Assembly: GCA_030426955.1 (NCBI GenBank)
Contig: JAUHXS010000002.1
Span: 248,001-312,000, forward strand
Reading direction: 5' to 3'
Source: Bacteroidia bacterium
Lineage (GTDB): Bacteria > Bacteroidota > Bacteroidia > Chitinophagales > JAUHXS01
DNA: 64,000 nucleotides
A program made the translations under genes and the position numbers. Each line of letters starts with the position of its first letter. Within the stretch, counting starts at the first letter, position 1. Shown here one piece after another: positions 12,618 to 61,449 of the stretch. The notes under the pieces are model-generated. The model saw nothing but the letters and a program-made list of their open reading frames with translations. It ran no database searches and was not told the DNA's origin.

Positions 12618-12702
12618 GGAGAGGTGGTCCAAAGGACTCCCTTGGAGGTGAGTGGCTGAAACCAACGGTTTGTCCCAAAGGACTCCTATGGAGCTAAATC
12701 GT
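12618..12702 (+). pseudogene. Interrupted 5' half of tRNA-Ser(GCT) with two hairpin inserts
   Basis: The first 44 bases of the intact tRNA-Ser at 12966 recur here without substitutions but are split in three. Segment 1 (12618-12627) equals tRNA bases 1-10; then 20 foreign bases (12628-12647); then tRNA bases 11-35 (12648-12672); then 21 foreign bases (12673-12693); then tRNA bases 36-44 (12694-12702). The two inserts resemble each other (TCC..AAAGGACTCC..GGAG) and each folds into a short hairpin with an ACT loop. The second insert lies inside the anticodon, between G and C of GCT. The tRNA 3' half is absent. The GIY-YIG start codon lies six bases further on. Confidence 0.9.
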
Positions 12703-12708
12703 TGAAAT

Positions 12709-12951
12709 ATGTTCTTTGCATATATATTGAAAAGTTTAAAAGATGGGAGATGCTACTATGGTAGCACTAACAATTTGCGGAATAGACTGGAGAAACATAA
12801 CAAAGGGTATGTCAAGTCAACTAAGCAAAGAAGACCTTTTGAAATTATATACTTTGAAAAATTTGATACTAGAAAAGAAGCATTTAATAGAGAAAAGTAT
12901 TTCAAGAGTGTTGATGGCTATATTTGGCTAAAGAAAGAAAAAATCATTTAG
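12709..12951 (+). CDS. GIY-YIG endonuclease-superfamily protein
   Basis: An 80-residue single-domain GIY-YIG protein. The two motif strands are read as AYILKSL and CYYGST (the Y-x-Y/x-x-G signature near residues 4-20), followed by NNLRNRLEKHNKG with the conserved Arg, and the later catalytic Glu region TRKEAFNREKYF and a KxxxG-like end. Stand-alone UvrC-like members of this size are frequent in Bacteroidota; their biological role is not established. The gene starts just after a broken tRNA-Ser 5' half and ends 14 bases before the intact tRNA-Ser, so it sits between two copies of its neighbour tRNA. A homing or tRNA-targeting role is inference. Confidence 0.85.
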   Translation: MFFAYILKSLKDGRCYYGSTNNLRNRLEKHNKGYVKSTKQRRPFEIIYFEKFDTRKEAFNREKYFKSVDGYIWLKKEKII

Positions 12952-12965
12952 AAACTTAACTTACT

Positions 12966-13054
12966 GGAGAGGTGGGTGAGTGGCTGAAACCAACGGTTTG
13001 CTAAATCGTCGTGCTTGGAAACAGGCACCGCGGGTTCGAATCCCGCCCTCTCCG
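12966..13054 (+). tRNA. tRNA-Ser(GCT)
   Basis: Acceptor stem GGAGAGG/CCTCTCC with discriminator G at 13054, anticodon stem ACGGT/ATCGT with loop TTGCTAA (anticodon GCT), a long class II variable arm, T-stem GCGGG/CCCGC with loop TTCGAAT. The 3' CCA is not encoded. All arms pair, so this copy appears functional, in contrast to the broken copy at 12618. Confidence 0.96.
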
Positions 13055-13147
13055 CTTTTACTCTCTGTAGCCTTGGCGAAAGGGAGTATCGTTCTTTGAA
13101 GATGGTAGACTATTGTGAAATTTTGATAGCCTGTCATAGAGAGTTTC

Positions 13148-13174: not shown

Positions 13175-13233
13175 CGGGGTGTAGCGTCAGCCTTCGTTGC
13201 ACTTTGACTGACAAGCAGTCCGGTTAACCGGAC
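13175..13233 (+). pseudogene. Interrupted 5' part of tRNA-Pro with palindromes
   Basis: Bases 13175-13186 equal the first 12 bases of the intact tRNA-Pro (13284), preceded by the same TTA. A 28-base insert bounded by GTCAG/CTGAC inverted repeats follows. tRNA sequence then resumes as GCAGTCCGGTTA at 13215-13226, and the D-loop is extended into the perfect 16-base palindrome GTCCGGTTAACCGGAC (13218-13233). No anticodon arm, T arm or 3' acceptor follows, so this is a 5' fragment only. Confidence 0.85.
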
Positions 13234-13283: not shown

Positions 13284-13358
13284 CGGGGTGTAGCGCAGTC
13301 CGGTTAGCGTACCTGGTTTGGGACCAGGTGGTCGCAGGTTCGAATCCTGCCACCCCGA
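13284..13358 (+). tRNA. tRNA-Pro(TGG)
   Basis: Acceptor stem CGGGGTG/CACCCCG with discriminator A at 13358, anticodon stem CCTGG/CCAGG with loop TTTGGGA (anticodon TGG), T-stem GCAGG/CCTGC with loop TTCGAAT. CCA is not encoded. All arms pair, so it appears functional. Confidence 0.96.
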
Positions 13359-13362
13359 CATT

Positions 13363-60389: not shown

Positions 60390-60475
60390 AAAAGGAATAG
60401 ACTATTTTAAGACTTATTTAGGAAATAACTTGTAAAATCAAAAGAAGTCGTTTAAAAGTGCTCCAACTTTGAAAA

Positions 60476-60540
60476 GGGTTTTAGCCCGATTGGTTCAGCG
60501 CATCCCGATTAACATCGGGAGGGTCATAGGTTCGGGACAA
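60476..60540 (+). pseudogene. Pseudo-tRNA-Val, array copy 1
   Basis: Follows the intact tRNA-Val order up to the T loop (TTGGTTCAG, GGGTCATAGGTTCG), but the 5' acceptor, D stem and T-stem 3' strand do not pair, and the anticodon arm is replaced by the hairpin TCCCGAT-TAAC-ATCGGGA (60503-60520). Confidence 0.85.
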
Positions 60541-60657
60541 TTGAAGCAATCTATCTACGATGTAAGAAGTAATTAGAATAATATTAATTGTAGACTTATT
60601 TAGGAAATAACTTGTAAAATCAAAAGAAGTCGTTTAAAAGTGCTCCAACTTTGAAAA

Positions 60658-60722
60658 GGGTTTTAGTCCGATTGGTTCAGCGCATCCCGATTAACATCGG
60701 GAGGGTCATAGGTTCGGGACAA
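60658..60722 (+). pseudogene. Pseudo-tRNA-Val, array copy 2
   Basis: Almost identical to copy 1, with the same TCCCGAT/ATCGGGA hairpin (60685-60702) in place of the anticodon arm. The 3' end again turns into GGGACAA instead of closing the T stem. Confidence 0.85.
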
Positions 60723-60839
60723 TTTGAGCAATCTATCTAGGATGTAAGAAGTAATTAGAATAATATTAATTGTAGACTTATTTAGGAAATAACTTGTAAA
60801 ATCAAAAGAAGTAGTTTAAAAGTGCTCCACCTTTGAAAA

Positions 60840-60904
60840 GGGTTTTAGCCCGATTGGTTCAGAGCATCCCGATTTGATATCGGGAGGGGCATAGGTTCAA
60901 GATA
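60840..60904 (+). pseudogene. Pseudo-tRNA-Val, array copy 3
   Basis: As the other copies, but diverged (hairpin TCCCGAT-TTGAT-ATCGGGA at 60867-60885, loop changed, stem kept). T-stem closure is lost (GGTTCAAGATAA). Confidence 0.85.
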
Positions 60905-61015
60905 ATTTCAGAAATCAATTTAGAATATTGTTAGGTAATATTAATTGTAGACTTATTTAGGAAATAACTTGTAAAATCAAAAGAAGTCATTTAAATTTGC
61001 TCCACCTTAATGAAA

Positions 61016-61090
61016 GGGCGCTTAGCTCAGTTGGTTCAGAGCACTTGGTTTACACCCAAGGGGTCATAGGTTCGAATCCTATAGTGCCCA
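61016..61090 (+). tRNA. tRNA-Val(TAC)
   Basis: Acceptor GGGCGCT/AGTGCCC, D stem GCTC/GAGC, anticodon stem CTTGG/CCAAG with loop TTTACAC (anticodon TAC), variable GGGTC, T stem ATAGG/CCTAT, discriminator A. CCA not encoded. All arms pair. It ends the pseudo-tRNA array. Confidence 0.97.
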
Positions 61091-61093
61091 CGA

Positions 61094-61119
61094 AGCCTTC
61101 CACGTCGGAAGGCTTTTTT
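61094..61119 (+). terminator. Terminator after tRNA-Val
   Basis: AGCCTTCC (61094-61101) pairs with GGAAGGCT (61107-61114) around a five-base loop and runs into a T tract. The same terminator recurs, one base changed, after the downstream tRNA fragment at 61426. Confidence 0.9.
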
Positions 61120-61126
61120 ATTTAAT

Positions 61127-61384
61127 ATGCCTTATACTTACATTTTATATTCTTCCAGTATTGATAAGTATTACGCAGGGTATACCAGGTCAAACCTAGA
61201 GGAACGACTTAATAAACATAACACAAATCACAAGGGTTTCACAGGCAGGGTAAACGATTGGAAAGTCGTTTGGAATGAGTATCATGATCTAAAAACAGAA
61301 GCATACAAAAGAGAACGAGAAATAAAATCATGGAAGAGTAGAAAAAAGGTTGAAGTGTTGATTGGTTCAGCGCATCCCGATTAA
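61127..61384 (+). CDS. GIY-YIG endonuclease-superfamily protein with tRNA-encoded C-terminus
   Basis: An 85-residue GIY-YIG protein: YTYILYSSSIDKYYAGYT is the motif pair, SNLEERLNKHN has the conserved Arg, and EAYKREREIKSWKSRKK includes the expected catalytic Glu/Lys region. It starts seven bases after the tRNA-Val terminator. Its last residues (IGSAHPD) and stop codon are read from tRNA-like sequence: the D-arm GATTGGTTCAGCGCA and the hairpin whose loop provides TAA. So the gene runs into a broken tRNA 3' half in frame. A second member of this family is at 12709. Substrate unknown; tRNA-gene targeting is inference. Confidence 0.88.
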   Translation: MPYTYILYSSSIDKYYAGYTRSNLEERLNKHNTNHKGFTGRVNDWKVVWNEYHDLKTEAYKREREIKSWKSRKKVEVLIGSAHPD

Positions 61385-61422
61385 TATCGGGAGGGTCATA
61401 GGTTCGAATCCTATGGTGACCA
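61358..61422 (+). pseudogene. tRNA-Val-like 3' fragment downstream of the GIY-YIG gene
   Basis: From the D loop (GATTGGTTCAG) on, this resembles the array copies, including the TCCCGAT-TAAT-ATCGGGA hairpin (61375-61392), but here the T arm is intact (ATAGG TTCGAAT CCTAT), followed by GGTGACC and A. There is no 5' acceptor to pair with. Bases 61358-61384 are also the end of the GIY-YIG gene. Confidence 0.85.
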
Positions 61423-61425
61423 CGA

Positions 61426-61449
61426 AGCCTTCCACATCGGAAGGCTTTT
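61426..61449. terminator. Duplicated terminator
   Basis: AGCCTTCC-ACATC-GGAAGGCT followed by TTTT is the tRNA-Val terminator repeated. It lies at the same distance from the tRNA 3' fragment as the original does from the intact tRNA. It also lies two bases from the bestrophin stop on the other strand and can serve both. Confidence 0.85.

Follow-up and report, generated by a model that had tools for sequence, protein, structure and literature searches.

Small GIY-YIG nuclease genes associated with tRNA genes and hairpin-broken tRNA copies: a probable family of homing-type selfish elements in bacterial chromosomes

We describe a locus in which a tRNA-Val gene is accompanied by several broken copies of itself and by the gene of a very small GIY-YIG nuclease. 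It is found in a stretch of 64,000 nucleotides of a Bacteroidia genome, which we call the window. The locus is probably a member of a large family of selfish, free-standing elements of homing type which reside in bacterial chromosomes and use tRNA genes as their sites. Such a selfish family living on tRNA genes has apparently not been described before. A preliminary description of the locus is confirmed almost to the base. Chance is excluded as the cause of the arrangement, since the same layout recurs at 79 loci.

The tRNA-Val locus

On the + strand of the window the upstream region of tRNA-Val is present four times, with starts at positions 60411, 60593, 60775 and 60950, so that the spacings are 182, 182 and 175 bp. 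The first three units combine a copy of this region with a broken tRNA-Val. In unit 1 (60411–60592) the broken tRNA lies at about 60476–60534 and contains a hairpin at 60503–60520. Unit 2 (60593–60774, hairpin at 60685–60702) is built in the same way, as is unit 3 (60775–60949), which is more diverged and has a hairpin with a 5-nt loop at 60867–60885. Three tandem units of about 182 bp had been announced: the three units with broken copies are there, but the third one measures 175 bp and is 70% similar to the first over the full reference length. In all of them the anticodon arm of tRNA-Val, CTTGGTTTACACCCAAG, has been exchanged for TCCCGATTAACATCGGGA (units 1 and 2) or TCCCGATTTGATATCGGGA (unit 3), and the copy is truncated in the T arm. 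The hairpin has the form TCCCGAT-loop-ATCGGGA, as previously reported, and is found also in a further copy to the right of the nuclease gene; the four loops are TAAC, TAAC, TTGAT and TAAT.

The fourth unit leads to the intact gene. Its upstream region (60950–61015) is the only one with a -7-like box TAAATTTG; it is followed by tRNA-Val with anticodon TAC at 61016–61091 (found by ARAGORN; 72 bits with the Rfam tRNA model) and by a terminator, AAGCCTTCC..GGAAGGCTTTTTT, at 61093–61117. In all three broken units the box reads TAAAAGTG. Judged by the Bacteroidota promoter consensus, these units are therefore probably poorly expressed. The broken copies can still be folded into a tRNA-like form.

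The nuclease gene comes next (61127–61384, + strand). It codes for 85 amino acids; no other open reading frame in 60411–61449 reaches 60 aa. The protein matches the Pfam family GIY-YIG (PF01541) with E=1.9e-15 and 57.3 bits, the curated cut-off being 22.6, and carries the catalytic residues Y5, Y16, R27, H31 and E63. The gene ends inside the right broken tRNA-Val (61358–61423), as had been noticed: its last codons are D-arm sequence and its stop codon TAA (61382–61384) is the loop of the hairpin at 61375–61392, which replaces the anticodon arm. This copy has no 5' acceptor strand. It has kept the T arm, the 3' acceptor strand and a near-identical terminator (61425–61449), so that the intact and the right broken tRNA share a 57-bp repeat with 95% identity.

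Other members in the same genome

The genome has eleven small GIY-YIG genes, besides one match in a frame of 594 aa which is presumably UvrC. Ten of the eleven adjoin a tRNA gene (Val, Phe, two Ser, three Arg and three Met), and a broken copy of the same tRNA is generally found on the other flank or nearby. The probability of such a result by chance is about 3e-22, allowing for 60 tRNA genes. The remaining gene (L010, with a protein ending NPNW...) belongs to a subgroup which has no tRNA linkage.

The window itself contains a second member, L009, at 12618–13055 of the + strand. It starts with a broken tRNA-Ser copy with two TCC..GGA hairpins (12618–12702), continues with the GIY-YIG gene (12709–12951) and finishes with the intact tRNA-Ser(GCT) at 12966–13055. 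The intact tRNA thus lies on the right and not on the left; the same holds for L002–L007 and L011. In several members of this genome the stop codon falls within the D arm of the intact tRNA. The palindromes in the broken copies are lineage-specific: two Met members have TCCGCCAG.TGGCGGA, while CCTGCC..GGCAGG is situated in the D arm of the broken copies of the Arg members.

Some further features of this genome may be mentioned. The palindrome CCTGCC..GGCAGG is also present on its contig C11, at position 151226 (L107), in the apparent coding sequence of a putative lipoyl-domain enzyme subunit. In-frame palindromic elements occur in Rickettsia, and this case is reminiscent of them. The active-looking gene of the tRNA-Met member L003 is preceded by a second GIY-YIG copy, which has decayed, and by a broken tRNA-Met whose D arm holds a long palindrome. 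Pieces of tRNA-Pro (CGGGGTGTAGCG ... GCAGTCCGGTTA) are found at 13175–13226 of the window, upstream of the intact tRNA-Pro at 13284–13359; they look like another broken copy and have no GIY-YIG gene of their own. The tRNA-Arg genes of L006 and L007 are each followed by some 130 bp of related sequence, ..AATCAA....TTGATTTTGACCT....GGATCA.., and L011 has similar sequence downstream of its tRNA-Arg. In L006 and L007 this stretch finishes by repeating the final 13–17 bases of the tRNA. Here, too, a small element linked to tRNA genes could be present, different from the first.

The nuclease family in other genomes

Searches at the level of the order, of the phylum and in named genomes gave 213 distinct proteins, 183 of them with the full domain. 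As the samples are best hits to the window protein or to a profile prepared from this genome, the fractions given here describe this nuclease family and not all GIY-YIG genes. A tRNA gene on the same strand lies within 150 bp of 110 of the 183 full-length proteins and within 800 bp of 29 more (139/183); none of the 183 has a nearby tRNA on the opposite strand. Within 150 bp the ratio of same to opposite strand is 124:0. The unlinked proteins correspond to contig ends, to tandem repeats of the unit or to other subgroups. Linked examples are found in Bacteroidota, Verrucomicrobiota, Chloroflexota, Thermodesulfobacteriota and Gracilibacteria. The layout recurs at more than 12 kinds of tRNA in several bacterial phyla, and the same layout at many unrelated tRNAs was what the preliminary description had expected of an endonuclease-linked element. 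Residues Y5, Y16, G18, R27, H31 and E63 are invariant in 183/183 proteins, which indicates that catalysis is under selection.

The ending of the protein within D-arm sequence does not turn out to be a general feature: among 160 related genes, 44 have at least 11 nt of the cognate tRNA at their end, and the corresponding number for a non-cognate tRNA is 2. The terminal motif GSxHPD is not a signature either. Apart from one locus read as Ile, only members linked to Val or Arg have it, and it is a by-product of one reading frame.

A tree of the nuclease was prepared with 134 proteins; its alignment has 84 columns and many of its forks are open. On this tree tRNA identity changes 38 times, with a mean of 97 and a minimum of 89 when shuffled. 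Host family requires 59 changes (89 when shuffled, minimum 82), so that the tree follows the tRNA more than the host. The groups associated with Met/TCCGCC and with Asn each span different families, the Asn group also different phyla. From these comparisons the nuclease lineages appear to keep one tRNA while they switch hosts.

In L086 two units in tandem are nearly identical, a recent tandem duplication. Another genome (L213, G108:C34) has a run of at least eight tandem GIY-YIG genes over about 5 kb; as far as the stretch was read, it shows no intact tRNA at a distance of up to 800 bp. A search with tblastn gave no phage homologue. We also considered an origin in phages or plasmids and rejected it: there are no phage matches, and the plasmid matches are eight from Rhizobium, at 37%; one of them was inspected, L290, and there is no tRNA close to it.

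Empty and occupied sites

Orthologous empty sites, where the tRNA is single and an array is absent, do exist, as had been anticipated for an endonuclease-linked element. At a tRNA-Asn locus with a shared upstream gene, genome G059 has a single tRNA, G036 has a left hairpin copy and the intact tRNA, and G003, G023 and G049 have the complete layout. A larger survey was carried out in one genus, where 81 genomes were searched and 30 tRNA-Val loci were read. Eight of these loci have both the nuclease gene and hairpin copies and 21 have neither; the remaining one has hairpin copies, and next to them an assembly gap where the gene would be. Gene and hairpin copies thus occur together (Fisher p=1.5e-6, not corrected for phylogeny). 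The occupied locus L272 and the empty locus L286 have both flanks in common. The results which had been named beforehand as refuting the proposal were not obtained in the form given. Arrays without a GIY-YIG gene had been considered contrary to the proposed linkage. They are absent from the genus of 81 genomes, apart from the case with the gap, but at the tRNA-Asn locus of G036 (L169) the left hairpin copy stands without a nuclease gene. The gene is often broken or lost, and the copies do not vanish at once (L003, L077 and L169).

These data bear on two explanations which dispense with a selfish element. The first is coincidence: tRNA loci are general insertion hot spots, which may collect mobile genes, and the palindromes would be separate repeats of the RAYT kind, since transposases of this type are present in the genome. 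It is extremely improbable, as the strand bias within 150 bp is 124:0, each nuclease lineage fits its tRNA, gene and hairpin copies are associated within one genus, no phage homologue is found and the palindromes close to the RAYT genes of this genome are unrelated. The second is a tRNA dosage device useful to the host, in which the nuclease would amplify its own tRNA against anticodon nucleases. Tandem arrays are indeed observed and the phage nuclease SegB offers a precedent (PMC13096335). However, what is amplified is for the most part broken tRNAs, and the same site has no element in most relatives; we judge this explanation very unlikely.

A terminator of native type, CTCCTTAAG..AATTA.GGAG, as seen in the empty locus L265, stands behind the right broken copy of L275 and L262, and the intact tRNA has another terminator. 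Because the native-type terminator is found with the right copy, these loci suggest that the host gene was split: the right copy would be what remains of it, while the 3' half of the intact tRNA would have been brought by the element. In loci of the window type such a split is not visible, since both copies carry the same terminator. An endonuclease-linked element which carries parts of its host tRNA, as was proposed at first, is supported. In several loci, however, the broken copy is probably a remnant of the host gene with its original terminator and was not made by the element. In L260 the native tRNA is intact too. An empty locus, L263, has a terminator of the element type, which may be a scar of loss. 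The intact tRNA is the same in the occupied and the empty loci read, and the idea that it has been recoded in occupied loci was discarded for this reason.

Hairpins in the broken copies

Broken copies were detected as hairpins of at least six pairs with pieces of the local tRNA, in the right order, on both flanks. Of the 131 linked loci, 79 are positive with the cognate tRNA, 1–6 with a non-cognate one and none with a shuffled one. The replaced segment depends on the tRNA. Copies of Val, Pro, Ala and some Arg have the hairpin in place of the whole anticodon arm, and other Arg copies in place of the D arm. In Asn, in Bacteroidota and Verrucomicrobiota alike, the 5' half of the anticodon arm is affected; in Met the replacement comes after the anticodon. 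With the flanking sequences as anchors we extracted 43 near-palindromic arms. They present paired changes at several positions (TCCCG/CGGGA, TTCCG/CGGAA, CTCCG/CGGAG, TCACG/CGTGA) and are 97.7% paired; after reshuffling of the 3' letters the value is 81.7%. This difference is no more than supportive, because the arms had been selected for near-pairing.

Hairpins of this kind raise the most serious alternative, given that similar palindromes sit in the loops of other hairpins of the genome. The hairpin itself might be the mobile unit and the GIY-YIG protein the enzyme which mobilises it, acting on extruded hairpins or cruciforms as in the REP/RAYT systems; tRNA genes would then be targeted because they fold. 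The class of palindrome does track the nuclease clade (19 changes on the tree; shuffled mean 39, minimum 30), a tRNA arm is often replaced exactly by the hairpin, stem pairing is kept through paired changes, and TCCCG..CGGGA palindromes elsewhere in the genome are often found in the loops of larger hairpins. Yet palindromes away from tRNA loci are few, with 22 TCCCG sites in 3.4 Mb, four of them at the window locus (a reversed control pattern gives 11). Furthermore, not only the hairpin but the nuclease itself is tied to one tRNA species, with empty and occupied alleles. We therefore regard this explanation as unlikely.

The perfect palindrome TCCCGATAGCTATCGGGA recurs in the genome (at about position 1500 in L246, L248, L249, L250 and L253). 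In most cases it lies in the loop of a larger hairpin, in one case within an open frame. Two other interpretations of the hairpins were rejected. They are not REPs of the RAYT genes, which in this genome lie elsewhere, with unrelated palindromes near them. Nor do they look like a generic dispersed repeat, as TCCCG palindromes are few and in one large genus they occur on tRNA copies only together with the gene; this last exclusion is not complete.

The broken copies are always on the strand of the gene, and some of the left ones stand directly behind a tRNA promoter. Both features, together with the conserved stems and the tRNA-like folding, would suit a nuclease which acts on RNA, for example on tRNA, with the broken copies as co-transcribed decoys or antitoxins in a system similar to toxin-antitoxin pairs. 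But the known activity of GIY-YIG enzymes is on DNA, left copies lack one end of the tRNA and right copies the other, none of the three broken units of the window array has an unaltered -7-like box, and the copies often outlast for a time a broken or lost gene. The arrangement resembles instead an insertion in a host gene followed by duplication. An action on RNA seems improbable to us.

A possible mechanism: tRNA-specific homing

Homing is probably the most economical explanation. The sequences show the architecture, the tRNA specificity of the lineages, empty and occupied alleles, the linkage between gene and hairpin copies, the invariant catalytic residues and a recent tandem duplication; the cutting of DNA, its position, homing through repair of a double-strand break and the role of the hairpin are deduced. 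The only gene of the element is a minimal GIY-YIG nuclease. Each nuclease lineage would be specialised on one tRNA species and would probably cut inside the corresponding gene. Repair of the double-strand break with an occupied copy as template would then insert the element. Its left end would complete the 5' half of the host tRNA, giving an intact tRNA with a terminator of its own, and the nuclease gene would come next; the host would survive because this left end rebuilds an intact tRNA. The 3' half of the host gene would be left over with the original terminator, the cut arm being replaced by a palindromic hairpin which destroys the target. Additional cutting and recombination between the tRNA repeats could produce tandem arrays, and hairpin copies would accumulate upstream. 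Phages offer a precedent: their free-standing GIY-YIG nuclease SegB cleaves regions with tRNA genes, and tRNA segments are amplified by its action (PMC13096335, PMC2988022).

The weak point of homing is the protection of the intact tRNA. Since this tRNA is the same in occupied and empty loci, a target within it would persist in the donor, and protection would have to come from elsewhere or be incomplete. It might be due to the flanking sequence or to a low activity on the donor allele, or the target might be something other than the tRNA gene. Some loci also speak against the scheme: the intact copy is on the right in L002–L007, L009 and L011, the native tRNA of L260 is intact as well, and L169 has a hairpin copy but no gene.

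A more general statement is also conceivable, which we put forward tentatively and with some doubt. There may be a class of mobile elements, common to several phyla, with one lineage for each tRNA species, which spreads by cutting tRNA genes, turns an arm into a signature hairpin and supplies a replacement tRNA. The hairpin could be a mark which makes the copy resistant to cutting, or even a recognition site. If this is true, it would be a third route into an essential RNA gene, in addition to those of self-splicing introns and of elements with an integrase.

Comparison with known systems

The GIY-YIG domain and the free-standing GIY-YIG homing endonucleases of phages are already known. A homing endonuclease is expected to be present or absent at one and the same site, as we find at the tRNA-Asn and tRNA-Val loci, and its lineages should follow the target more than the host; on our short alignment tRNA identity requires 38 changes against 97 when shuffled and host family 59 against 89.

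The closest likeness is with SegB of T4 and T6 and other phage enzymes, which are also free-standing GIY-YIG nucleases in tRNA genes and for which spread driven by cleavage and tandem amplification of tRNA segments have been reported (PMC13096335, PMC2988022). The family of the window differs from SegB by its single domain of about 85 aa, its location in bacterial chromosomes, the presence of one lineage per tRNA species and the tRNA copies with a hairpin in place of an arm.

Group I introns with homing endonucleases, found in the anticodon loops of bacterial tRNAs, also invade tRNA genes, often at the anticodon, and leave a functional tRNA. In contrast, our element maintains function by a duplicate tRNA and not by splicing. 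A search of the locus against Rfam (E<=1) gave no group I intron or other family above the cut-off except tRNA; the other matches were below threshold and due to chance. With REP/RAYT systems the element shares the association of small palindromes with a nuclease-like gene, which they often flank on either side, but it has a GIY-YIG enzyme instead of a Y1 transposase and its palindromes are inside tRNA copies. Integrative elements of tRNA sites likewise insert in a tRNA gene, restore a functional tRNA and leave a partial copy. Our unit has about 350 bp and its partial copy has an arm exchanged for a hairpin; neither integrase nor cargo is found at the window locus, where no other open reading frame reaches 60 aa.

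In the open-access literature we found no description of a chromosomal family organised tRNA by tRNA with hairpin-replaced arms. There is a real chance that this family deserves a class of its own. If our interpretation is right, a considerable share of the small proteins of Bacteroidota which are usually annotated generically as GIY-YIG nuclease family proteins would be tRNA-specific selfish nucleases, and tRNA neighbourhoods of this kind would explain many odd pseudo-tRNA annotations. The family would also provide very small nucleases for about fifteen different natural targets. It would offer a tractable case, with natural empty and occupied alleles, of the invasion of an essential RNA gene without splicing.
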